DNA from: a virus
Reading direction: 5' to 3' (one strand)
DNA: 30,496 nt
IMG/VR virus record: IMGVR_UViG_3300044620_000152
Location: 1-30,496 of that record
Position numbers and translations under genes: made by a program. The notes beneath the pieces were generated by a model that was given only the letters and a program-made list of their open reading frames with translations, ran no database searches and was not told where the DNA came from. Numbering within the stretch: position 1 is the stretch's first letter; every line of letters starts with the position of its first letter. Below, in pieces: positions 9,946 through 29,263 of the stretch.

Positions 9946-9950
9946 ATTTG
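9943..9950 (+). promoter_or_regulatory. -7 element overlapping a stop codon before the GNAT-like gene
   Basis: TAAATTTG matches TAnnTTTG. Its TAA is the stop codon of the preceding gene, and it ends 3 bp before the ATG at 9954. As at 2965 and 8638, it would give a near-leaderless message. No -33 motif at standard distance. Confidence 0.4.
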
Positions 9951-9953
9951 TGT

Positions 9954-10355
9954 ATGGAAGTTCGATTCTTAAATGATGATGATTATAAAACGTTATCGTC
10001 ATGGTGGAAAGAATGGGGGTGGACACCTCCGCCAGCTGATATGTTGCCACAAAATGGCAAAGGAGGCGTGATGGTTCACAAAGATGGCTTTGAGATATGT
10101 GCTGGATTTGTTTACTTTACAAACTCAAAAACAGCTTGGATAGAATTTATAGTTTCGAACTTTCAATATAGGGAAGATGATAGGCATGAAGCTCTTGAAT
10201 TTCTTATAAATGTATTAATAGAGATGGTTAAAGATACTGGAGATTTTAAATACATTTATACATCTTTAAAAAGCAAAAGTCTAATTGACAGATATAGCAA
10301 TTGTGGTTTCCAAAAGGGAGACAGTAATTGCCAAGAAATGGTTAAAATATTATAA
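9954..10355 (+). CDS. Small GNAT-like protein in the virion block
   Basis: This 133-aa protein has the layout of a short GNAT acetyltransferase: MEVRFLNDDDYKTLSSWW, PPADMLPQNGKGGVMV, the strand pair AGFVYFTNSKTAWIEFIVSN, a helix with REDDRHEALEFLINVL and the ending SLIDRYSNCGFQKGD, which resembles the usual last GNAT strand (LIxxYxxxGF). The acetyl-CoA loop (Q/RxxGxG/A) is not obvious: YREDDRHEA stands in its place, so activity is uncertain. Similar proteins are common in phages. I chose the ATG at 9954 over the in-frame TTG at 9948 because the promoter-like element covers the TTG. It sits between the muzzle and cargo genes and ends 1 bp before the next start. Substrate unknown. Confidence 0.6.
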   Translation: MEVRFLNDDDYKTLSSWWKEWGWTPPPADMLPQNGKGGVMVHKDGFEICAGFVYFTNSKTAWIEFIVSNFQYREDDRHEALEFLINVLIEMVKDTGDFKYIYTSLKSKSLIDRYSNCGFQKGDSNCQEMVKIL

Positions 10356-20399: not shown

Positions 20400-21509
20400 C
20401 TAGAACAGATGTGTTAACCTGGCAACTTGACCATGCTCAGGGTGATGAATAAATCCCTCAACTGCTTTTGGTGCATGCGTGTAACCATTACGATAATGCC
20501 AACTGTCAGAACCACTTGGCGAGCGTAATGTCTCTACACATACAGACATATAGTCCTTTGAAACTTTATGATGCAGATGATGTGTGTATACATACCTGTG
20601 TTTACACTCATGCCACGATGATCCAGCCTCATGTGCCATCAATAAAGGCAGGTCTGTATTTTTAGCACCATCTCCATGCGTACATCCAATTAAGTTATTG
20701 CCATACGTAACATACTTACGATGTTTCATGTCATTGTCAAAAGTAACTTGTTTGCATTTACCAAACCATGCCTCAACGCATTGCAACAACATAAAGCCAG
20801 ACATGAAATCATGGTTACTTGGATTGTACACAACATGAACATCAGCTACTGTCATTAATGTTTCAATGATTTCAATCAGTAGTTTTTTAGCTGTTATAAA
20901 GTTATCGTACCACATACCATCAGTGTCTTGTGGTGTACCGCTTGTTGTTGTGCGTTTTGGGTTGTCAATATGCAATATGTCGTTTCCTGCTATAAAAATA
21001 ATCTTGTCAATATTAAAAGATACTGACTTATTTAATATACCATGCAAACCTTCGCGAACTCTTTGAACAGCTATCTGCATATTGTACTCTTCACCAGTCT
21101 CAAAGCTAGAGCATATCTTACCAATATGAATATCAGAAGGATCAAATACAAGGCAGTGTGGATCGTACGATACCTCTCTTTTAAATGCAGGGTATCTTGG
21201 ACTCCACTTAGATACTTCGTCTATTAAATCTTGTTTGAATTCATCATAGTTGAACTCATCATCTTTCTTGACATTTATACTAAAGTGTTTCCCTTTGTGC
21301 CAATAGTGGCTAACCTTACTGAAATCTATTTCAGCAGCCTTACATGCTTCATAAAGCCCTCTGTCTTTTGTCCAGTTATATATATTTTTCTGAACTGAAT
21401 TAAAGCTTTGATTTAATCCAAACTCTTCTATTATTTGTTTAGCTACTTCTGATGCACTTTTACCTTCTTCAAAAAAAAGATATGCAGCTCTATTCCGATA
21501 TAATTTCAT
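20400..21509 (-). CDS. Calcineurin-like metallophosphoesterase with N-terminal helical region
   Basis: This 369-aa protein shows the ordered metal-binding motifs of the metallophosphoesterase superfamily: DxH (DPSDIHIG, D126/H128), GND (AGNDILH, 175-177), NHD (NPSNHD, 232-234), GCTHGDG (275-281) and THHLHH (309-314). Residues 1-60 are a separate helix-turn-helix-like region (SASEVAKQIIEEFGLNQSFNSVQKNIYNWTKDR). Relatives in phages are annotated as DNA repair phosphoesterases. Likely substrate is phage or host nucleic acid, but this is unproven. Its ATG lies inside the last 20 nt of the 56-codon gene upstream, which suggests coupled translation. It is the last gene of the leftward block, converging on the giant virion gene. 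Confidence 0.8.
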   Translation of the reverse strand: MKLYRNRAAYLFFEEGKSASEVAKQIIEEFGLNQSFNSVQKNIYNWTKDRGLYEACKAAEIDFSKVSHYWHKGKHFSINVKKDDEFNYDEFKQDLIDEVSKWSPRYPAFKREVSYDPHCLVFDPSDIHIGKICSSFETGEEYNMQIAVQRVREGLHGILNKSVSFNIDKIIFIAGNDILHIDNPKRTTTSGTPQDTDGMWYDNFITAKKLLIEIIETLMTVADVHVVYNPSNHDFMSGFMLLQCVEAWFGKCKQVTFDNDMKHRKYVTYGNNLIGCTHGDGAKNTDLPLLMAHEAGSSWHECKHRYVYTHHLHHKVSKDYMSVCVETLRSPSGSDSWHYRNGYTHAPKAVEGFIHHPEHGQVARLTHLF

Positions 21510-21660
21510 GTGTTCTGTCTAGATCTCTCAAAACTCTTATTAGGTTTTGAATATTTAATTTCATTTCTTTATAGTCAGCATCAACTAAAGATTCGTATAT
21601 GCAATCTGTAAGATCATTAATCTCAGTCATTACTGCATTCACATAGTTGATGTTCTCCAT
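21490..21660 (-). CDS. Short 56-aa protein directly behind a strong promoter
   Basis: This frame reads MENINYVNAVMTEINDLTDC then a helical, charged remainder ending HEIISE. It stops with TAG at 21490-21492, overlapping the phosphoesterase start by 20 nt. The ATG lies 8 nt after a TATATTTG element that has a matching TTTG at 19 bp spacing, the best promoter in the window. Acidic/basic helical make-up fits a small regulatory or DNA-mimic-like protein, but no family is recognised. It fills the only gap between the phosphoesterase and the promoter, which supports it being real. Confidence 0.65.
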   Translation of the reverse strand: MENINYVNAVMTEINDLTDCIYESLVDADYKEMKLNIQNLIRVLRDLDRTHEIISE

Positions 21661-21668
21661 TTTGTCAA

Positions 21669-21699
21669 CAAATATATTACTTATTAATATTATAACAAA
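21669..21699 (-). promoter_or_regulatory. Bacteroidota-type promoter, leftward
   Basis: Read on the minus strand: TTTG (21699-21696), 19-bp spacer, TATATTTG (21676-21669). This matches the Bacteroidota -33 TTTG and -7 TAnnTTTG elements at standard spacing. Transcription should begin about 21660-21665, at or just before the ATG of the 56-aa gene. It overlaps the end of the upstream gene at 21677 and would drive the short gene and the phosphoesterase. Confidence 0.75.
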
Positions 21700-21946
21700 T
21701 ACCTGACAGATATTTTTTTATAATTATCTCATAATTAACTTTATATTTGCAAAGATTTTCTCTCTTTATCACTTTTTTTATGAAGTACTCATTAATAACT
21801 TTTAGGTTGTCATCTAAAGCTATTGGTATATTTTCCAAAGTTTTAAAAACTTTAGGTAGTTTTGAATTCATAGAGATAGGAATAGCTTTTAGTTTGACGT
21901 CTGCGCAATAAACACCTTTAATCTTCGATGCTGATTCCATATCCAT
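21677..21946 (-). CDS. Hypothetical 89-aa basic protein
   Basis: This is a small Lys- and Ile-rich protein (KIKGVYCADVKLKAIPISMNSKLPKVFKTLENIPIALDDNLKVINEYFIKKVIKRENL..) with no recognised motif. It overlaps the gene upstream by 29 nt, as elsewhere in this operon, and the end of its frame lies on the promoter for the downstream pair. Two start codons (ATG at 21946 and 21940) are possible. It fills the space between well-supported genes on the same strand, which is the main support. The AT-rich 3' part could be chance coding. Confidence 0.5.
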   Translation of the reverse strand: MDMESASKIKGVYCADVKLKAIPISMNSKLPKVFKTLENIPIALDDNLKVINEYFIKKVIKRENLCKYKVNYEIIIKKYLSGICYNINK

Positions 21947-22157
21947 TTAATATATCTCTTATCTCTTCTCTTAACTTATCAGCAAAATCCATTTCTTCTG
22001 TAGTAGCTTGCCTATTTTCATAACTACCATACTTAACTACAGATCTTAAATGTTGGTCTAAATCCCAGACAGCTAGTTTCCATTTGTAGCCATCTAATGC
22101 ATCTCTTGCATCATCTTTCTCTTCGAACGAATCGAATTCTAAAATTATTTTCCCCAT
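21918..22157 (-). CDS. Conserved small phage protein of unknown function
   Basis: This 79-aa acidic protein reads MGKIILEFDSFEEKDDARDA then LDGYKWKLAVWDLDQHLRSVVKYG, ending in a helix (MDFADKLREEIRDILNGYGISIED). I recall this D-A-L/WD-D.LR..VKYG..LREEIR..L...GI pattern from many phages and prophages, where it has no established function. The conserved Trp-Asp-X-Asp-Gln core suggests a folded domain. It starts after a 25-bp gap with an A-rich leader on the minus strand, so it may head a small subunit of the operon. Confidence 0.7.
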   Translation of the reverse strand: MGKIILEFDSFEEKDDARDALDGYKWKLAVWDLDQHLRSVVKYGSYENRQATTEEMDFADKLREEIRDILNGYGISIED

Positions 22158-22182
22158 GTTTTTTTATTTATTATTAGCGGAA

Positions 22183-22386
22183 TCATATATTTTTATCTAT
22201 ATTCCGAGAGTTATAATCAATTATAAATCCTACAAATACAATTATATTCATGCCCACTGAAGATATTATCTCAGTGACATCATCGTATACATTAGTAGAT
22301 AAATGAACATGACCAACAACCCAAAAAGGTATGGCTAAGTTCTGACTTATCCAAACAATAGTGTACTTTATTAATCCTTTAGCCAA
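22183..22386 (-). CDS. Hypothetical small membrane protein
   Basis: This 67-aa protein has two hydrophobic stretches: YTIVWISQNLAIPFWVVGHV (about 8-27) and IISSVGMNIIVFVGFII (about 40-56), separated by an acidic loop with NVYDDVTE. That is consistent with two membrane passes. It overlaps the upstream gene's 3' end by 16 nt. Small membrane proteins in the early region of phages often act on the host envelope or in superinfection control; nothing here identifies which. Confidence 0.5.
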   Translation of the reverse strand: MAKGLIKYTIVWISQNLAIPFWVVGHVHLSTNVYDDVTEIISSVGMNIIVFVGFIIDYNSRNIDKNI

Positions 22387-22580
22387 TTTCTAAATGCTAG
22401 GCCCATGTTGTCTAATTGATATAAGAACGCTCTATGTTCCTCATCATTCTCTATGTCCATCTTTTTATAAAGCTGGTCGCTATTTTTTAGGACCTCTTTT
22501 ACAAAATCATTTCCAGCTTTTTTAATTTGTCGGACATAAACATTTGGATACACATTTTTAATGTCCTCCATGAAGTCCAT
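22371..22580 (-). CDS. Hypothetical helical protein, start uncertain
   Basis: A 69-aa version starts MDFMEDIKNVYPNVYVRQIK, then helices with NDFVKEVLKNSDQLYKKMDIENDEEHRAFLYQLDNMGLAFRNWLKD. A longer frame begins at 22649 but would overlap the preceding HTH gene by 92 nt; the ATG at 22580 (or 22571) gives a 23 or 14 nt overlap like the others in this operon, so I prefer it. No family is recognised. Confidence 0.5.
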   Translation of the reverse strand: MDFMEDIKNVYPNVYVRQIKKAGNDFVKEVLKNSDQLYKKMDIENDEEHRAFLYQLDNMGLAFRNWLKD

Positions 22581-22878
22581 TAGGACTGGCAAAATACTTA
22601 CCAAGCTCGCCAGTTTTTTCTCGTTCGATATAAATTTCTCTTTCTCCATCGCTTAAACTATTAAAATCATATTCTTTTTTATTAAACATTTCTTCTTCTG
22701 TCTCGTAGTATGGTCCGTCTTTATACCCTAAGTCTACCTTGCCATAGTGTCTGACAAGTATACCTCTTATATATTTTTGAACTATACATACTTGAACTCC
22801 TGTTATTTCACTTATTTCATCTAATGTTTTTCCTTCTGCACATAATTCTTTGATTCTAGATTTATTCTTCTGGAACAT
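22558..22878 (-). CDS. Small helix-turn-helix protein
   Basis: Residues about 6-37 (SRIKELCAEGKTLDEISEITGVQVCIVQKYIRG) form a clear helix-turn-helix of the resolvase/sigma-like kind (G.TLDEIS..TGV....V..YI). The C-terminal half is acidic (DGPYYETEEEMFNKKEYDFNSLSDGEREIYI). It is therefore a candidate DNA-binding regulator of the phage or a small accessory factor. The frame extends upstream to 22920, but the ATG at 22878 gives a 17-nt overlap with the nuclease gene rather than 59, and starts right before the HTH. It could be the protein that binds the nearby dyads, which is speculation. Confidence 0.6.
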   Translation of the reverse strand: MFQKNKSRIKELCAEGKTLDEISEITGVQVCIVQKYIRGILVRHYGKVDLGYKDGPYYETEEEMFNKKEYDFNSLSDGEREIYIEREKTGELGKYFASPNGLHGGH

Positions 22879-23131
22879 TATAGAATTGTGTACCATCGTA
22901 GACTGATGCTTTAACGCCATGATTGTTTAGTTCTTTAATTCTGAATACTTGTAATGGTCTAGGTTTTTGGCCAGGTCGCTTGACTTCAATAAACTCAACA
23001 TCTGAATTCTTAGGTATCGCCAATAGGTCTGGTATGCCAGTCTTATTGGTGACAGATAGCTTGATGACATAGTAACCATCCTTCTCAAGTTGCTTGATTA
23101 ATTTAGATTGTATTTGCTGTTCTGTTGCCAA
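22862..23131 (-). CDS. VRR-NUC family nuclease
   Basis: From the TTG at 23131 the protein is 89 aa. It has the compact PD-(D/E)XK layout of stand-alone phage VRR-NUC proteins: N-terminal Glu in ATEQQIQ, GIPDLLAI (Asp35), FIEVKRPG (Glu49, Lys51) and the downstream PLQ..R (Gln61). These nucleases cut DNA, often branched structures, and phage members serve in replication or recombination. The frame runs back to an ATG at 23191, but those 20 residues cross the promoter and inverted repeats and do not resemble the family, whereas MATEQQIQSKLI is a typical family start. A TTG start is therefore favoured. Its end overlaps the HTH gene. Confidence 0.8.
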   Translation of the reverse strand: MATEQQIQSKLIKQLEKDGYYVIKLSVTNKTGIPDLLAIPKNSDVEFIEVKRPGQKPRPLQVFRIKELNNHGVKASVYDGTQFYNVPEE

Positions 23132-23162
23132 TATTTGCCAAATATATAGATTATTGGCAAAT
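23125..23162 (-). promoter_or_regulatory. Promoter -7 element inside a repeated TTGCCAA operator
   Basis: Minus-strand TATATTTG (23146-23139) lies 7 nt before the TTG start of the nuclease gene. It is embedded in an inverted repeat: ATTTGCCAA at 23133-23141 with TTGGCAAAT at 23154-23162 (9-bp arms, 12-bp gap). A third half-site TTGCCAA lies at 23125-23131. The overlap with the promoter suggests repression by a dimeric regulator. No TTTG at the standard -33 distance. Confidence 0.5.
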
Positions 23163-23180
23163 GTTTGAAATAAAAACATA

Positions 23181-23215
23181 ACAAAGTGCAAGCGAAACTA
23201 TCGCATCGCCTGCAC
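23181..23215 (-). terminator. Terminator between zinc-ribbon and nuclease genes
   Basis: Minus-strand stem GTGCAGGCGA (23215-23206) pairs with TCGCTTGCAC (23195-23186) with one G-U pair and a 10-nt loop, followed by TTTG and a T-rich stretch. The pairing is better on the minus strand, so it probably ends transcripts from the gene at 23233-23511. Confidence 0.65.
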
Positions 23216-23232
23216 GACTGTTAGTGGCAATA

Positions 23233-23511
23233 CTAATCAACATCATCATTCCATAAAGGATGGCCACATTCATCACAAAAACCAACTCTAATTTCTCTAT
23301 TATCCTTTTTTACATTTATCTCTCCACAATCTGTACATACATATACTTTAAAACCAATCGGTAAAGTACTACCACTAACATCATGTTGGCTCAATGCTAG
23401 TTTCTCCTCCAGCCAATCGGCATAAGCAGGTATGTTATCGCTAAATATTAAATCTGTTTCACGAGAATATTCAATTCTCAACTTTATTCTTTCTTCACTT
23501 ACTTTATTCAT
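23233..23511 (-). CDS. Small zinc-ribbon protein
   Basis: This 92-aa protein has an N-terminal charged helical half (VSEERIKLRIEYSRETDLIFSDNIPAYADWLEEKLAL) and a C-terminal zinc ribbon: CTDCGE (Cys59, Cys62) with FCDECGH (Cys79, Cys82). Two CxxC pairs about 17 residues apart would bind one zinc ion. The first half resembles small phage proteins that end in WLE.KL. The function is unknown; possibilities are nucleic-acid binding or a protein-protein adaptor. It lies between the terminator on one side and the cassette-like element on the other, so it marks the left border of that insertion. Confidence 0.6.
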   Translation of the reverse strand: MNKVSEERIKLRIEYSRETDLIFSDNIPAYADWLEEKLALSQHDVSGSTLPIGFKVYVCTDCGEINVKKDNREIRVGFCDECGHPLWNDDVD

Positions 23512-23559
23512 TCTAATCTATTTTTAATTAATAATTCGCACTAAGCCAACATGAGGAAC

Positions 23560-23574
23560 GTTATATGAAATGCC
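23560..23574 (+). repeat. Left inverted end of the cassette-like element
   Basis: GTTATATGAAATGCC. Its inverted partner at 24852-24866 differs at one base. It lies 48 bp outside the left copy of the A-rich inner repeat. Confidence 0.65.
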
Positions 23575-23638
23575 TTGCTGACCGTTTTCAATTGAAGTTC
23601 CGTGAAGGAAAAACAAAAAGAAAAAAGCCACCGCACTT

Positions 23639-24790
23639 TTAAAATAAGGTAATTTCATTTTTACTTCTCATTTCATTTATTGGTAATAATAATTCTTCAT
23701 ATCCACTTATACTTTCTCCTATGTATTCGTGGCAATAAGATGCTCTTTCTAATCTATTTCTTGCTGACGTGTCAGATGAACTACTTGATTTATGTCTTAT
23801 TTTACCATTCATTGCCGTTCCTCTCCATTGTTTGCTTCTATTAAAGTAAACTCCTAATGCGGGGTTAACTGTTTTTATAAAACACAATCCACCCATATTT
23901 CTAATTAAACCCCCACAAAACTCTGACAGTTTTACACCTAATCCCATCCCTTGAAAGTCAGGCATTACAACTATTCTGCTTATTGCAAATCCATTAGCAC
24001 ACCCCTTTCTTGGTTGGTTAATTATTGCTACAATTCCAATAGCTTTGTCGTTCCATTCAAATAATAAAAACTTACAACTCTTATTTACATCTTCGGTTAA
24101 ATAATGATGCTTTTTGAAGAAGTCCCAAGTTTCAGCCTCGACTCTACTAACTTGTAATGTGATTTGTGGTCTGCCTTGCCGAAGCCAGTCGCCTCTTTCG
24201 AGTACGCCTCCTTTTTGTGGTGAACAAGTCCAATCAGGCATTAACCATTCTAATATGTCGTAATGACAAGATGCAACTATTATCCTTTTGTTTTCTCTAC
24301 GAATATATTTCTGTAAAGCAAAACTCATAGCTTTTGCAACATCTCTATCTACAACAGAAGTATATTCATCAACTAAAATTACTTCACCATCTTTTGCAGA
24401 TGCTACTAAATAAGCTAATGTTGCTCTGTATTGTTCGCCATTTGATAATGTGTGAAATGGTCTTAACCAAGTAGGAACAGAACTCAATCCCATTGAAGTT
24501 AAAACTAATGTAGCATCTTTTGGGTCTAACCAATCAAAGTTACTAATCAATGGTTTTTCTGCATCAAAGTTTACCTTTTTTACATCGCCCATCTTTTTTA
24601 ATATAGTAGTTTTTCCACTTCCACTACCTCCTAAAATTACTCCAATATTCCAATCAAAGTTTTTAGCTTCTCCTAAATTCATAGGAATGGATACAGATGT
24701 TTCTTCTCTGTTCTGAATATCAAATGCTTCATACACATACTCGGTGTATTTATCATTCAGTATTTTTGTTTTTAATTCAATATTTGCCAT
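23639..24790 (-). CDS. ABC-type ATPase fused to a GNAT acetyltransferase
   Basis: This 383-aa protein has two domains. Residues about 40-205 are a soluble ABC ATPase: Walker A GGSGSGKTT (54-62), signature LSNGEQ (115-120), Walker B VILVDE (137-142), H-loop SCH (174-176). Residues about 210-383 are a GNAT domain with HHYLTEDVN, FEWNDKAIGIVAI and the acetyl-CoA loop SRIVVMPDFQGMGLG (271-285). There are no membrane segments, so it is not a transporter. The combination matches COG2401 (ABC-type ATPase fused to predicted acetyltransferase), whose function is unknown. The GNAT half resembles Mom-like DNA-modification enzymes, so a role in modifying phage DNA or other anti-defence action is possible but speculative. 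It sits alone between inverted repeats, unlike the tightly overlapping genes around it. Confidence 0.8.
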   Translation of the reverse strand: MANIELKTKILNDKYTEYVYEAFDIQNREETSVSIPMNLGEAKNFDWNIGVILGGSGSGKTTILKKMGDVKKVNFDAEKPLISNFDWLDPKDATLVLTSMGLSSVPTWLRPFHTLSNGEQYRATLAYLVASAKDGEVILVDEYTSVVDRDVAKAMSFALQKYIRRENKRIIVASCHYDILEWLMPDWTCSPQKGGVLERGDWLRQGRPQITLQVSRVEAETWDFFKKHHYLTEDVNKSCKFLLFEWNDKAIGIVAIINQPRKGCANGFAISRIVVMPDFQGMGLGVKLSEFCGGLIRNMGGLCFIKTVNPALGVYFNRSKQWRGTAMNGKIRHKSSSSSDTSARNRLERASYCHEYIGESISGYEELLLPINEMRSKNEITLF

Positions 24791-24851
24791 CGCTTTTTTT
24801 CTTTTTGTTTTTCTGTTTAGTGTTCCAATTGGGCTTTATCTTAAATAAGTC

Positions 24852-24866
24852 GGCACTTCATATAAC
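24852..24866 (-). repeat. Right inverted end of the cassette-like element
   Basis: GGCACTTCATATAAC on the plus strand, i.e. GTTATATGAAGTGCC on the minus strand. It is the inverted partner of 23560-23574 and runs straight into the attC-like hairpin. Confidence 0.65.
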
Positions 24867-24952
24867 ACGGGTTTGGCAAAAGTGGGCAGAAACATTCTGC
24901 TAAAATTGAGCATCCTACAAGCCCACCTTCGCCAAGCCCGAAACCGTTATAA
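24861..24952 (-). repeat. Long attC-like imperfect hairpin
   Basis: Outer TATAAC (24861-24866) pairs with GTTATA (24946-24951). Inside, 17 of 20 positions pair between 24868-24887 (core TTTGGC and GTGGGC) and 24921-24940 (core GCCCAC and GCCAAG). On the minus strand two of the three mismatches become G-U pairs. The loop holds a perfect nested hairpin GCAGAA-ACA-TTCTGC at 24886-24900. Two-block arms, an extra-base asymmetry and TATAAC/GTTATA ends recall attC sites, although GTTATAA does not fit the strict GTTRRRY core. It forms the 5' leader region of the ABC-GNAT gene. Confidence 0.6.
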
Positions 24953-24997
24953 ATAATTGGTTTCACCCCCTGTATAGATAGTTATCCTATCAGATGC

Positions 24998-25013
24998 TTA
25001 AGGTCAGCCTTAA
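24998..25013. promoter_or_regulatory. Short dyad TTAAGG-TCAG-CCTTAA
   Basis: This is a perfect 6-bp inverted repeat with a 4-bp centre in the 323-bp non-coding stretch at 24791-25113. A weaker dyad GATAG/CTATC lies at 24977-24991. Both lie upstream of the ABC-GNAT gene. Either could be a regulator site or an RNA hairpin in its leader. Confidence 0.35.
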
Positions 25014-25051
25014 CTATTAAGGAAGCCACCTCCAACTATTTATAACAACAA

Positions 25052-25112
25052 TTACACCCAATCGGGTATAATTTTAGTTAACAGATGATGTATTATACCT
25101 ATTCGGGTATAA
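25052..25112. promoter_or_regulatory. Pair of 20-bp operator-like dyads
   Basis: TTACACCC-AATC-GGGTATAA (25052-25071) and TTATACCT-ATTC-GGGTATAA (25093-25112) share the same layout: 8-bp arms, 4-bp centre, identical right arms preceded by TC. Their starts are 41 bp apart, close to four helical turns, so two dimers would bind the same DNA face. Neither is followed by a T-run, which argues against terminators. They lie in the region upstream of the ABC-GNAT gene, 2 bp past the stop of the gene ending at 25114. Confidence 0.55.
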
Positions 25113-25113
25113 A

Positions 25114-25407
25114 TTAATCGTCAATCTTACTTGACGGCCCACATCCTAAATACATCTCTATTCTAAAACCTTTGGCTTCATAGCTTTTAAATTTATTTTT
25201 TTTGATATGTGACTCAACAATTTCTTCGTATTTAATTCGATCCAACTTGTATGCATTGTAATCAATTACTTTTTGCCCTAGCTCATTAACTGGAGCATTG
25301 GCAACCAACTCATCAAAGTCAGCTGATGGTGTTGCTTCTCTGTACAATTCTCTGTAGCAATCCATTGCTGCATCAAATAATTTCTGTTCTCTCGTTTTTC
25401 TTTTCAT
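25114..25407 (-). CDS. Hypothetical 97-aa helical protein
   Basis: This starts MKRKTREQKLFDAAMDCYRELYREATPSADFDELVANAP, then NELGQKVIDYNAYKLDRIKYEEIVESHIKKNK and a beta-like end FRIEMYLGCGPSSKIDD. I recall the pattern EL...ATP..DFDEL...A..NE.G.K.I.Y..Y.... from small conserved proteins in Bacteroidota phages, function unknown. The frame reaches 25476, but the ATG at 25407 reduces overlap with the helicase gene to 35 nt and fits the family start. It is the last gene of the replication operon before the non-coding region. Confidence 0.6.
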   Translation of the reverse strand: MKRKTREQKLFDAAMDCYRELYREATPSADFDELVANAPVNELGQKVIDYNAYKLDRIKYEEIVESHIKKNKFKSYEAKGFRIEMYLGCGPSSKIDD

Positions 25408-26620
25408 AATCTTTCTTAAAAATGTTAATAGTATATTTTTTCTTTGCTTTAACGGTCTTGTATATTTTATCTTCAATGCCGCCTTTTGAGAATACCCAAT
25501 AAACTTTATTAAACTTACGCTCCATAGTAGTTAATCGGTCGCGTGCTTGCCAATAACTTGTAGCACTAAAGTCAATATTATAAAATACCAAGTAGTCAGC
25601 ATTTTTTAATGATATGCCCTCACGCCCTGATATAATTTGTAAAGCTATATTCTTATCAGTTGAATCAAACTCATCAAGTTCAGTAGTTAAACTATCACCA
25701 AACACTTGCTGAAGTGCGCTAAGCTCTTCTTTAAACTTATAGAATATGCCTATCTTATGATCTGAAAACTTCCACTTTATACATTCAGCTTTAGTGGTAT
25801 CAATAACCATACTGTTACCGCTCTCAAACTTAACTGTGCCACTCCATAATTGGTGTAATTTCTGCATTAATTTTACTGGCGTATCGGCCAATATAACTTC
25901 GTCCTTGCCTTCGACAACTAAGCCTTTCTCAAGTGTTTTAATAATTTGTTTAGTTCTATCAGTCATATCAACATACAATACTTCCTCTTCAATCTCAGTA
26001 GAGAATCCTGCCTGCTGTTGTGTAAATGTAATAACATAAGGAAAGATTGCAGCCATTATTTTAATCTCATCGCCTTTTGAGTAGTCATTCACCATAAACC
26101 CATTTATCTTGCGCTGAAACTTAAATACATAGTCATCAGCCCATCGGTAGAAGTTAACATAATGTCTGAACGGACTATAGTTAGATACCCAAAACTGATG
26201 ATATATCTGACTGAATGACTCTGGTGTCATTGTTCCTGATAGAAATATCATTGGCTTGTCAGCGAACATCTGCTTGTAGGTCTTAGTTGCTAGCCCTGGT
26301 TTTGGAAATGCTCCGAACCTATGGTGCTCGTCATGTATAACTAAGTCGTAGTTAGTATCTTCTAACTTATGCATTGACTCATCATTCGTTACAATTAAAT
26401 CAAACTTATAGCCAAAATTATTATAGTCATTTAGAATACTTGATACAGCCTTCTTTTTAGTTAGAAATAGAGCTCTTTTTGCTCCGTATAGTTTTGCTGT
26501 TTCTAAAGCTGTCAAAGTTTTCCCAGTTCTTACTTCCATAGAAATGTAAACAATTTTGTTTACTTTCAATATGTCAACCGCCCTGTTCGCTATGTTGATT
26601 TGATAATCCCTTAGTTCCAT
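25373..26620 (-). CDS. SF2 DNA helicase, SNF2-like
   Basis: This 415-aa protein carries the helicase motifs in order: Q-motif-like LRDYQ (3-7), motif I VRTGKT (30-35), motif II DEHH (97-100), motif III FLSGTM (about 129-134), and a C-terminal RecA lobe with LQIISGREGISLKNADYLVFYN and motif VI-like YWQARDRLTTMERK. The DExH box and QARDR are typical of SNF2-type phage helicases, which are ATP-dependent DNA translocases used in replication, recombination or anti-defence. At 415 aa it is a minimal version with no additional domains. It overlaps its upstream neighbour by 47 nt and its downstream neighbour by 35, as part of one operon with the primase-helicase. Confidence 0.85.
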   Translation of the reverse strand: MELRDYQINIANRAVDILKVNKIVYISMEVRTGKTLTALETAKLYGAKRALFLTKKKAVSSILNDYNNFGYKFDLIVTNDESMHKLEDTNYDLVIHDEHHRFGAFPKPGLATKTYKQMFADKPMIFLSGTMTPESFSQIYHQFWVSNYSPFRHYVNFYRWADDYVFKFQRKINGFMVNDYSKGDEIKIMAAIFPYVITFTQQQAGFSTEIEEEVLYVDMTDRTKQIIKTLEKGLVVEGKDEVILADTPVKLMQKLHQLWSGTVKFESGNSMVIDTTKAECIKWKFSDHKIGIFYKFKEELSALQQVFGDSLTTELDEFDSTDKNIALQIISGREGISLKNADYLVFYNIDFSATSYWQARDRLTTMERKFNKVYWVFSKGGIEDKIYKTVKAKKKYTINIFKKDYEKKNERTEII

Positions 26621-26903
26621 CTTCTTTCATTTTATTTACAACATAATTCACTTCTTCAATTGTCTCAGCATGCAATTCTTTTGCATATTCCAACCAATTT
26701 AACTGCCGTTTGATTTCTCTAACGCTATAGTCAGGAACGAATGATACCGACTCAATCTTGCCAGTAAGAAAGTCATGAGCTTCCTTATAGTCTCTACACA
26801 TCCTTGAAAGCTCATTTTTTCTTCTTGTGCCATGCTTGGCATATCCATGGAGCTTCTCGGTAAACTCCAATCTTTTTCTAATTATAGACTCACAGAATTT
26901 CAT
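26574..26903 (-). CDS. Hypothetical helical protein between primase and helicase
   Basis: This 109-aa, strongly charged helical protein (MKFCESIIRKRLEFTEKLHGYAKHGTRRKNELSRMCRDYKEAHDFLTGKIESV; LNWLEYAKELHAETIEEVNYVVNKMKED) may form a coiled coil. It has no catalytic motif. Its ATGA start overlaps the stop of the primase-helicase by 4 nt, and its tail overlaps the helicase start by 47 nt, so it is translated with both. A replisome accessory factor, such as a helicase loader or clamp-like adaptor, is one guess from position only. Confidence 0.6.
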   Translation of the reverse strand: MKFCESIIRKRLEFTEKLHGYAKHGTRRKNELSRMCRDYKEAHDFLTGKIESVSFVPDYSVREIKRQLNWLEYAKELHAETIEEVNYVVNKMKEDGTKGLSNQHSEQGG

Positions 26904-29263
26904 AACTTAAGATTTAATTGTTCATCTTCTTTAACTACAAATTCAATATTCTTTCCAAGAGCATTACGAGTTACTATTGGTTTCTTGCCAAATGCAAACT
27001 CACCATAGCTATCAATCCATTTATAGAACCTGTTTTGAGATACTTTATACCTACCATAATTACTATAATCAGGGTAGTCCTGCGTAAATGAATTGAATAA
27101 GTCTTGTCCTAATGATTTCATCTGTGGCCTAGTGTAAACATTATCTTTTGATGTAGCCCACTCCCAAAAATCAGAACTTGTCTCAGCAATAAATTTACGT
27201 GTTTTTAAGTTCTTGAACTCACTACGTACCAATCCTTTGTTTAAATAAGACTGCAAGTTAGCTATCATATAGTTGTCAAACTTATTCCACTCATACTCAT
27301 CCCATCCGCTGAATAACATGTGACCAAACTCACTCTCAGGTGTAAAAGACTTATTGTAATGCTGCTTGAACTCAAGATCCCACTTACGTCTCTCAAACGA
27401 GTTACCTGCACCCTTAATCGCATAGTTAGTTGTTATGACAATCTTTGGTGATCGTTCAAATGGAATGTGTATCTCGTCCTTGTTCTTCTTCTCAAGTGTT
27501 ATACCTTCAGTGATTACTGAGAACAATCGCTCAAACTCAAAGTTCTTACTAACATCATCAAACACCAACACCTGCGTATCAACTTGAACTCGCTGATATG
27601 GAAATGACTTTTGGAAACTGAACCCCTTGCCATCAATGATGACCATCTTTTTCATGTGACTTACAGACTTTACAAAGATACCCTTACCAGTACCACCTTC
27701 TGGATTGTCGCTTATGACCTCATCGTTCAATATAACAGCAGGACAATAGCTCGCTGGTTTATAACTATGCATCAAGTAACCTATCGTTGACTCAACTGAT
27801 TTAACTCGCTCATTGTCATCGCCTGAAATATTTGTGATGAATCTCTTAAATTCACAATCAACATATGATGTCTCTAAGAAGTTTCTCTTTATCTTCTGAT
27901 CTTCCCAAACAATACCATTCAAGTCCTTGTAGTCAATCTTCTCAACGCCTCGTCTTGTTACCTTGACAGCGCAATTGTTATAGTATAAGTAAGCTGTCTC
28001 TGAGTCATCAGTCATAAACCTGCTGTCTACATTTGTTATGAAGTTCAAGAAGTTCTCAGTGAAGAACTTAGTATTCATTGCAAAGAAGTTATATATTGAC
28101 ATATCTCCAGTACTTTCGATATACTTTAATATGAAGTCCTTTATGACCTCTTCACTTGAGTCTGTTATAACATTGTCTTTAACTCTAACAAATACAAAGT
28201 TCTTTGATCCCTCAGGGTAGTACTTATAGAATCCCTCCTTAGTCAAAAAGTCTCTGAACAGATTAGGCACTAACTCAATCTTACCTTTAGATGATTTTGT
28301 CCAAAACTCATTTGGGTTGGTCTCACTAACAATCTTGTCAATAATCTCAACTGGCACATCTTCATTACGCTCAATAACTTCTTTGATTGGAGTACCGTTC
28401 TTTATATCGTTCTTTATTGCTACAGTCTTGTCGATGTCCTCGTAAAACTTAGTGTTATGGTTGGATACATTCTTGTAACCGCTCTGAATGATTGATGGTA
28501 TCTCATGAGCCATGTCTCCATTAATATCATACGATTCAATAACTGATCTTGCTGTTTCTTTGCTTATACCAAACTCATTGAACGCGCTTGCTAATATGTA
28601 TAAGTTGTTGTTGCGTTGACCAGGTATCATTCCAAAGTTCTTATCCCACCATAATGACAACCGTCTTATAATCTCATTATCATCGGTAACTCTTATCATC
28701 TGCTTGACAACAGGCTTATATTCATCAGAGTTATCCATGTCTGACCATATTAATGACAACTCATTAACATGTATATCAGGATCATGAGACTCATAGCACA
28801 CCCGACTGATGTTTTTACATGTAACGTCAAACTCATCGCAGTCATAGTACTTCTTTAAAGCATTGAAGTATTTCTTATGATTCATTGGGTCTTTTGGAAT
28901 CCTAACCAATACCTTAATGCCATCTCCAGATGGTGAGGTAAATACACAGTAAGAATATTTGTCTGAGATTAATTCTTCTCTCTTTTGGAACAAATGCTGA
29001 TTGTCTCTGAACCCATCAAAGTCAATGCATATTATTCCACTATGCTCTATAATAGCATTGTCAGCTCGCTTTGAGAATGTACCTGAAAAACAAATAGCAG
29101 GTAACTTTTTCTTCTTTTCATTCCTTGCTCCTTTCTCTGTCTCTTTGCGTACATCTTCTACAAGCTCTTTTGATTTGCCATTCTTTATTCTATCAATGGC
29201 TACACTTACATCAACATGGAATGGTGTCGATGTCTCGTTGATTGTCTTGAAATAAGTTATCAT
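26900..29263 (-). CDS. Primase-helicase: VirE/BT4734-like N-domain plus SF3-type ATPase
   Basis: This 787-aa protein begins with a domain like the Bacteroidota BT4734/VirE N-terminal type: IICIDFDGF (Asp81, Asp83) followed by FTSPSGDGIKVLVRIP (108-123) and SRVCYESHDPDI, the arrangement of a primase-polymerase-like active site. A central linker follows, then a helicase core: GGTGKG Walker A at about 523-528, VLVFDDV Walker B at about 565-571 and the sensor-like strand PKIVITTNYAIKG. The C-terminus (about 700-787) looks like a winged helix that reads DNA. It should unwind and prime phage DNA. The start overlaps the DnaA-like gene by 53 nt. Confidence 0.8.
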   Translation of the reverse strand: MITYFKTINETSTPFHVDVSVAIDRIKNGKSKELVEDVRKETEKGARNEKKKKLPAICFSGTFSKRADNAIIEHSGIICIDFDGFRDNQHLFQKREELISDKYSYCVFTSPSGDGIKVLVRIPKDPMNHKKYFNALKKYYDCDEFDVTCKNISRVCYESHDPDIHVNELSLIWSDMDNSDEYKPVVKQMIRVTDDNEIIRRLSLWWDKNFGMIPGQRNNNLYILASAFNEFGISKETARSVIESYDINGDMAHEIPSIIQSGYKNVSNHNTKFYEDIDKTVAIKNDIKNGTPIKEVIERNEDVPVEIIDKIVSETNPNEFWTKSSKGKIELVPNLFRDFLTKEGFYKYYPEGSKNFVFVRVKDNVITDSSEEVIKDFILKYIESTGDMSIYNFFAMNTKFFTENFLNFITNVDSRFMTDDSETAYLYYNNCAVKVTRRGVEKIDYKDLNGIVWEDQKIKRNFLETSYVDCEFKRFITNISGDDNERVKSVESTIGYLMHSYKPASYCPAVILNDEVISDNPEGGTGKGIFVKSVSHMKKMVIIDGKGFSFQKSFPYQRVQVDTQVLVFDDVSKNFEFERLFSVITEGITLEKKNKDEIHIPFERSPKIVITTNYAIKGAGNSFERRKWDLEFKQHYNKSFTPESEFGHMLFSGWDEYEWNKFDNYMIANLQSYLNKGLVRSEFKNLKTRKFIAETSSDFWEWATSKDNVYTRPQMKSLGQDLFNSFTQDYPDYSNYGRYKVSQNRFYKWIDSYGEFAFGKKPIVTRNALGKNIEFVVKEDEQLNLKL

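Follow-up and report, generated by a model that had tools for sequence, protein, structure and literature searches.

The window analysed here, a stretch of viral DNA of 30,496 nucleotides (IMG/VR record IMGVR_UViG_3300044620_000152), raises the question of what a gene that joins an ABC ATPase to a GNAT acetyltransferase does for a phage. The sequence-only reading had recognised such a fusion at positions 23639–24790 and had suggested that its product might modify DNA. The fusion itself is confirmed: an intact open reading frame of 383 codons lies on the minus strand, the plus-strand translation of the same interval being broken by many stops, and AlphaFold2 models the chain with confidence as a pair of domains (pLDDT 91.6 for the whole, 91.2 when the GNAT half is modelled alone). 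The gene and its parts are as follows.

23639–24790, minus strand: ABC ATPase–GNAT fusion (P0001), 383 residues, defined by the reading frame, profile matches and AlphaFold
24227–24790, minus strand: ABC ATPase half, residues 1–188, defined by ABC motifs, alignment and predicted structure
24176–24226, minus strand: linker, residues 189–205, with nothing longer than A5 and no homopolymer slip site
23642–24175, minus strand: GNAT half, residues 206–383, defined by PF00583, alignment and predicted structure

The ABC half contains a Walker A motif at residues 54–61 (G54-GSGSGK60), the signature L115-SNGEQ (115–120), Walker B D141 with the catalytic E142, a D-loop VVDR149 (D148/R149) and the H-loop H176. 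In an alignment of 70 members drawn from viral and prokaryotic contigs, G54, S56, G57, G59, K60, L115-S116-x-G118, D141-E142, D148-R149 and H176 are invariant or nearly so, as are F225, H229-Y230, R272, P277, Q280-G281, G283, G285, P310 and W322 of the GNAT half, which carries the acyl-CoA loop Q280-G-M-G-L-G285 (QGMGLG, 280–285) and a further motif, H229-Y230-L231. The claim that all ABC motifs and the acetyl-CoA loop are intact thus holds for Walker A and B, the signature, the D-loop, the H-loop and QGMGLG; it does not extend to the Q-loop, where the family alignment has no conserved Gln and the conserved residue is F85. The GNAT half matches PF00583 above the cut-off. The identity of an ABC transporter was rejected, the PF00005 score being 24.5 against a cut-off of 25 and no permease or other membrane partner being present among the window genes scanned. 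An Rfam search of the window gave no match. Elsewhere in the window, at 9948–10355 on the plus strand and among virion genes, lies a small protein that looks GNAT-like by eye.

The protein belongs to a large family. PHROG 11143, whose function is listed as unknown, matches residues 3–361 with E=1e-134, 64 named phage records from very different hosts encode a homologue detectable by tblastn, and scans found the fusion at no fewer than 591 viral and 432 prokaryotic-genome loci (at least, in both cases), which excludes chance as the origin of the reading frame; the best-scoring prokaryotic-genome matches are mostly from Planctomycetes. Homologues include those of Tenacibaculum phage pT24 (58% identity over 98%) and Nonlabens phage P12024S (57% identity). 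With full-length homology and with the ABC motifs and acyl-CoA loop intact, the window protein is an ABC-GNAT of the pT24 type (PHROG 11143). For an ABC-GNAT of pT24, which it names as QAX98348.1, a 2021 paper citing Iyer et al. 2013 predicts acylation of DNA bases (PMC7824862). The DNA-modification idea is therefore a published prediction for the ABC-GNAT family and not a new one; we found no report in the literature of an experimental test of it. What is new here is evidence from allelic exchange.

This evidence comes from comparison of the window with a sister contig, L255, and involves the following features.

23224–25051, minus strand: exchangeable segment holding the ABC-GNAT gene and a zinc-ribbon-like reading frame, delimited by comparison with L255
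23233–23511, minus strand: small reading frame within that segment, 92 residues, CxxC...CxxC, zinc-ribbon-like
25052–25071, no strand: operator-like palindrome TTATACCCGATTGGGTGTAA, 20 bp, next to the exchange point in the flank that stays constant
25093–25112, no strand: second operator-like palindrome TTATACCCGAATAGGTATAA, 20 bp, 41 bp from the first
24863–24949, minus strand: attC-like TAAC...GTTA element, a long imperfect palindrome (stem of 23 bp) upstream of the ABC-GNAT gene
23179–23223, minus strand: TAAC...GTTA palindrome bordering the exchangeable segment on its downstream side, common to L255 and a further relative, L276

The flanks of the segment are 97.6% (25052–27688) and 99.7% (20882–23223) identical in L255, and between them the 1.83 kb of the window is replaced by 1.76 kb (2638–4401 of L255) that lacks an ABC-GNAT and encodes two N6_N4 DNA methylases (PF01555). 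L276 has one N6_N4 methylase in the same slot. PF01555 occurs in only two of 36 helicase-related records, L255 and L276, and all three of the genes concerned lie within the slot. Since L255 is a metagenome contig of 6.7 kb, the exchange rests also on a cultured pair of phages and on two further lineages. P12024S and P12024L are sister phages of one host with slot flanks 96–99% identical; between primase and helicase, the former has an ABC-GNAT and the latter a Tet_JBP protein, a TAGT glycosyltransferase and an N6_N4 methylase. Among Arthrobacter phages, EastWest has an ABC-GNAT where Martha has Mom, the shared neighbours (gp73/68, ParB, a DNA-binding protein and the sliding clamp) being 65, 55, 80 and 45% identical. 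In Porphyromonas, phage006a has an ABC-GNAT and a formyltransferase in the slot that holds Mom in phage014a, and the two preceding tail genes are 95% and 76% identical. In every exchange seen, across four phage lineages, what takes the place of the ABC-GNAT is known DNA-modification machinery, and in two of them it is Mom. It is mainly on this that our verdict rests, and the suggestion that the gene product modifies DNA gains support from these allelic replacements.

Two qualifications apply to the slot. Mutual exclusivity with Mom or with methylases was discarded as evidence: Aeromonas phage PX29 (L085, NC_023688) carries both Mom (36312–36908) and an ABC-GNAT, so that one does not everywhere simply stand in for the other, and in VmeM-32 and Enterococcus 9184 methylases are encoded at other places. 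A slot of this kind can also house cargo of an unrelated nature, and in many relatives it is empty, which tells against a role in base modification.

The palindromes at 25052–25071 and 25093–25112 have no others of their kind in the window, where about 0.1 would be expected. They had been described as the gene's own operators; the palindromes are real, but they lie in the conserved flank that the window has in common with the methylase-bearing L255 and so belong to the slot. They are likely candidate operators of whichever cassette occupies it. The attC-like TAAC...GTTA palindromes border exchanged genes in the window, in L255 (2635–2705, 3539–3587 and 4402–4446), in L276 (2734–2792 and 3558–3602) and in L009. 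Counted across the window, they are no more frequent than in shuffled sequences; they are notable for their position and, in the case of 24863–24949, for stem length as well. They do not mark ABC-GNAT flanks in general (1 and 3 of 121, the level of shuffles) and are peculiar to the close kin of the window, where integron-like cassette exchange at the slot would be a lead to follow.

Neighbouring genes in relatives provide a second line of evidence. Outside the clade of the window, 46 of 66 genome loci have a ParB-like gene within four genes of the ABC-GNAT, almost always as its immediate upstream neighbour, and six of six P335-like viral loci have one as well; PF02195 matches five of six phage examples, two of these below the curated cut-off. 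ParB also adjoins Mom, in phages Appa and Martha, and this common neighbour supports base modification. No ParB above the Pfam cut-off was found in the window or in the kin covered by the search, Bacteroidetes phages included (P12024S, pT24, VmeM-32 and PX29), and in the window's own clade we found neither ParB nor a swap with Mom. Either the enzyme can do without ParB, therefore, or it works in another way in the window clade; the absence of ParB from the window, like the joint presence of Mom and ABC-GNAT in PX29, counts against the proposed role. In one subclade (NHagos, Komp_PAO1_1 and Porphyromonas; L090, L093, L094) a formyltransferase (PF00551) is encoded directly downstream, and the transferred group may accordingly bear an amine that is later formylated, giving a formylated aminoacyl product. 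The aspartate decarboxylase PanD is directly downstream in Jace and L167 and next to or near the ABC-GNAT in L092 (gp87), L167 and L248; here the transferred group may derive from beta-alanine, or PanD may serve beta-alanine/CoA supply.

The GNAT half had been said to recall Mom. As a statement of family membership this did not stand. PF25680 (Mom) has no match in the window at E<=1 and none in G000, hhalign of the window GNAT with the Mom profile gives a probability of 0.3%, which is not significant, with HHYL opposite the HYS of Mom, and the Foldseek list is led by ordinary GNATs. Among the best 50 of 308 Foldseek hits (E<=0.001), the closest solved folds to the GNAT half are RimI, PaiA and Naa50/Ard1, together with Naa60, and Mom (8bv8) is absent. 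The lead of RimI, PaiA and Naa50 in these 50 hits formally agrees with the outcome that had been named as refuting the proposal, a structure closer to ordinary GNATs. Little weight attaches to this comparison, as Mom itself is a divergent member of the superfamily and any GNAT query would probably bring up the canonical ones first. Sub-cut-off PF25680 matches (E about 4e-4 per genome) do occur in the GNAT halves of the relatives Pmp13 and P335, and both Foldseek lists contain TmcA (2zpa), at ranks 23 and 40; both observations favour base modification. As a statement that the two enzymes work alike the comparison survives: the window protein, though not of the Mom family, probably acts as Mom does, by an acyl transfer to a DNA base that is in this case assisted by ATP.

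The nearness of the GNAT fold to protein N-acetyltransferases (RimI, Naa50/Ard1 and Naa60 within the best 50 hits) is evidence against a DNA substrate and raises the alternative that the enzyme is a counter-defence factor acetylating a host protein, such as a restriction subunit or RNA polymerase, with the ABC half as a target-binding or regulatory module. There is a parallel in phage GNATs such as Rac, which PMC7824862 describes as acting on RNA polymerase. We consider this reading unlikely, since the partners and replacements of the gene are DNA-modifying and not protein-targeting enzymes, and since one conserved enzyme serves phages of many bacterial phyla, for which a universal substrate such as DNA fits better than a specific host protein. 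The presence of TmcA in both fold lists, and the logic that it shares with the window protein of an ATPase and a GNAT acting on a nucleobase, also speak for the acetylation of tRNA or another RNA during infection. The ATPase, however, is of the ABC type, whereas TmcA has a helicase-like one, the genes that replace the ABC-GNAT encode enzymes of DNA, and no recurrent RNA-processing neighbours were seen in the loci examined; this makes an RNA substrate quite improbable. Equally hard to sustain is the idea of a cargo gene for a metabolic GNAT, acting on small molecules or linked to CoA, with an ABC half that is a remnant of a transporter-type ATPase, for which the accessory slot and the PanD genes of Jace and L167 speak, but against which stand the lack of any membrane partner found, the coupling of ABC and GNAT across hundreds of phages, even in different frames, and the conservation of the ABC dimer-interface motifs.

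Overall, we favour the reading of the window gene as a phage DNA-base modifying enzyme that masks the phage genome by ATP-assisted acyl transfer, and we give it a probability of about 0.72. What was observed here comprises the intact family motifs, the confident two-domain fold and the repeated allelic exchange with known DNA-modification genes. The genomic context supports DNA as the substrate, which we infer, as we do the transfer of an acyl group, a part for ATP and the protection of phage DNA. The exchanges (L255, P12024S/P12024L, EastWest/Martha and phage006a/phage014a) and the published prediction in PMC7824862 support this reading. In the mechanism that we envisage, the ABC half would dimerise on ATP and grip and distort the phage DNA, or flip a base, and would let go of the DNA on ATP hydrolysis. 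The GNAT half would move an acyl group from acyl-CoA to a base amine, the likeliest target being the exocyclic amine of adenine or cytosine, and the acylated bases would hide the phage genome from host restriction.

In some relatives the two halves are not in one frame. At 98 loci, ABC and GNAT share a frame in 63, while the GNAT is in the -1 frame in 30 and the +1 frame in five, a few of the last arising from split or broken reading frames. The shifts fall mostly at one place, the ABC/GNAT linker, at slip sites such as T_TTT_TTT and A_AAA_AAA, with A_AAA_AAG in Enterococcus 9184; some T-run sites escaped the automated search but can be seen in the codons themselves. Isolates with a shifted frame, which is -1 in P335 and Javan141 among others, are P335, Oenococcus unk162, Enterococcus 9184, Thomasclavelia TR-TP2, Streptococcus Javan141, Javan523 and MismyG; in P335 and unk162 the GNAT frame lacks a usual start codon ahead of its core. 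In a quick tree most of the recoded sequences group with P335 in a single supported clade. Linker homopolymers are present in records L091, L095, L096, L088, L097–L101, L298–L377 and L378–L380.

The run CAA AAA AAA AAT, with exactly A10, is codon-invariant in 46 distinct in-frame genes of median identity 69%. Only nine of 150 conserved degenerate columns are codon-invariant, four of them at the A10 block, and one extra A in the run turns the next codon into a TAG stop (L336, L350, L377). The invariant A10 and the stop that follows an extra A suggest selection for slippage, be it transcriptional or ribosomal, and the pattern suggests that programmed slippage in one clade gives rise to the ABC protein by itself as well as to the fusion. 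Some of the A9 or A11 cases may stem from homopolymer indels in metagenome assemblies. The window has no slip site, and the 89 genes of its clade have no codon-invariant linker block. A limited check of one survey and one review found no mention of slippage at the ABC-GNAT linker. We regard as evenly poised the broader proposal that ABC-GNATs form a separate class of ATP-assisted phage DNA acyltransferases, swapping with methylases, TET/glycosyltransferase cassettes and Mom, in one large clade of which slippage on A9–A11 or T7–T9 sets the ratio of ABC alone to fusion.

If the favoured reading is correct, ATP-dependent acyl chemistry would join the known disguises of phage DNA, and there would be an explanation for a gene that sequence records commonly label ABC transporter, hemin importer subunit or siderophore transporter. 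The linker slip site of relatives would be unusual too, as an instance of recoding within an enzyme of DNA modification. The near-isogenic cultured phages P12024S and P12024L, which have the same host and slot and different cassettes, make the prediction directly testable.

Among known systems, the pT24 ABC-GNAT is the nearest, having the same architecture over the full length at 58% identity. Its gene is interrupted within the GNAT half by an in-frame stop (L082, about 6760) and is annotated as two coding sequences, whereas the window copy is uninterrupted; the stop may reflect a pseudogene, a sequencing error or recoding. In P12024L, a sister phage with the same host, the place of the P12024S ABC-GNAT is taken by a hypermodification cassette, but its chemistry, oxidation of the base by TET/JBP followed by TAGT glycosylation, is unrelated to that proposed here. 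Mom of phage Mu (8bv8), a methylcarbamoylase, is like the window protein a member of the GNAT superfamily with an HY motif near the GNAT N-terminus (HHYL in the window protein, HYS in Mom). It shares both slot and ParB neighbour with the Arthrobacter relatives of the window gene, and the slot only with those of Porphyromonas. Unlike Mom, the window protein has a fused ABC ATPase and a canonical QGxGxG acyl-CoA loop and is without the ELNRMW and SFAD motifs. TmcA, the tRNA(Met) cytidine acetyltransferase, is larger and has a tRNA-binding tail, and its ATPase is helicase-like; membership of the TmcA family was rejected since the ATPase half of the window protein matches ABC domains instead. TmcA nevertheless has an ATPase followed by a GNAT in one chain, the domain order of the window protein, and a nucleobase as its substrate, and by analogy we propose that the ATPase and GNAT of the window protein may act jointly on a DNA base much as those of TmcA do on a tRNA base.
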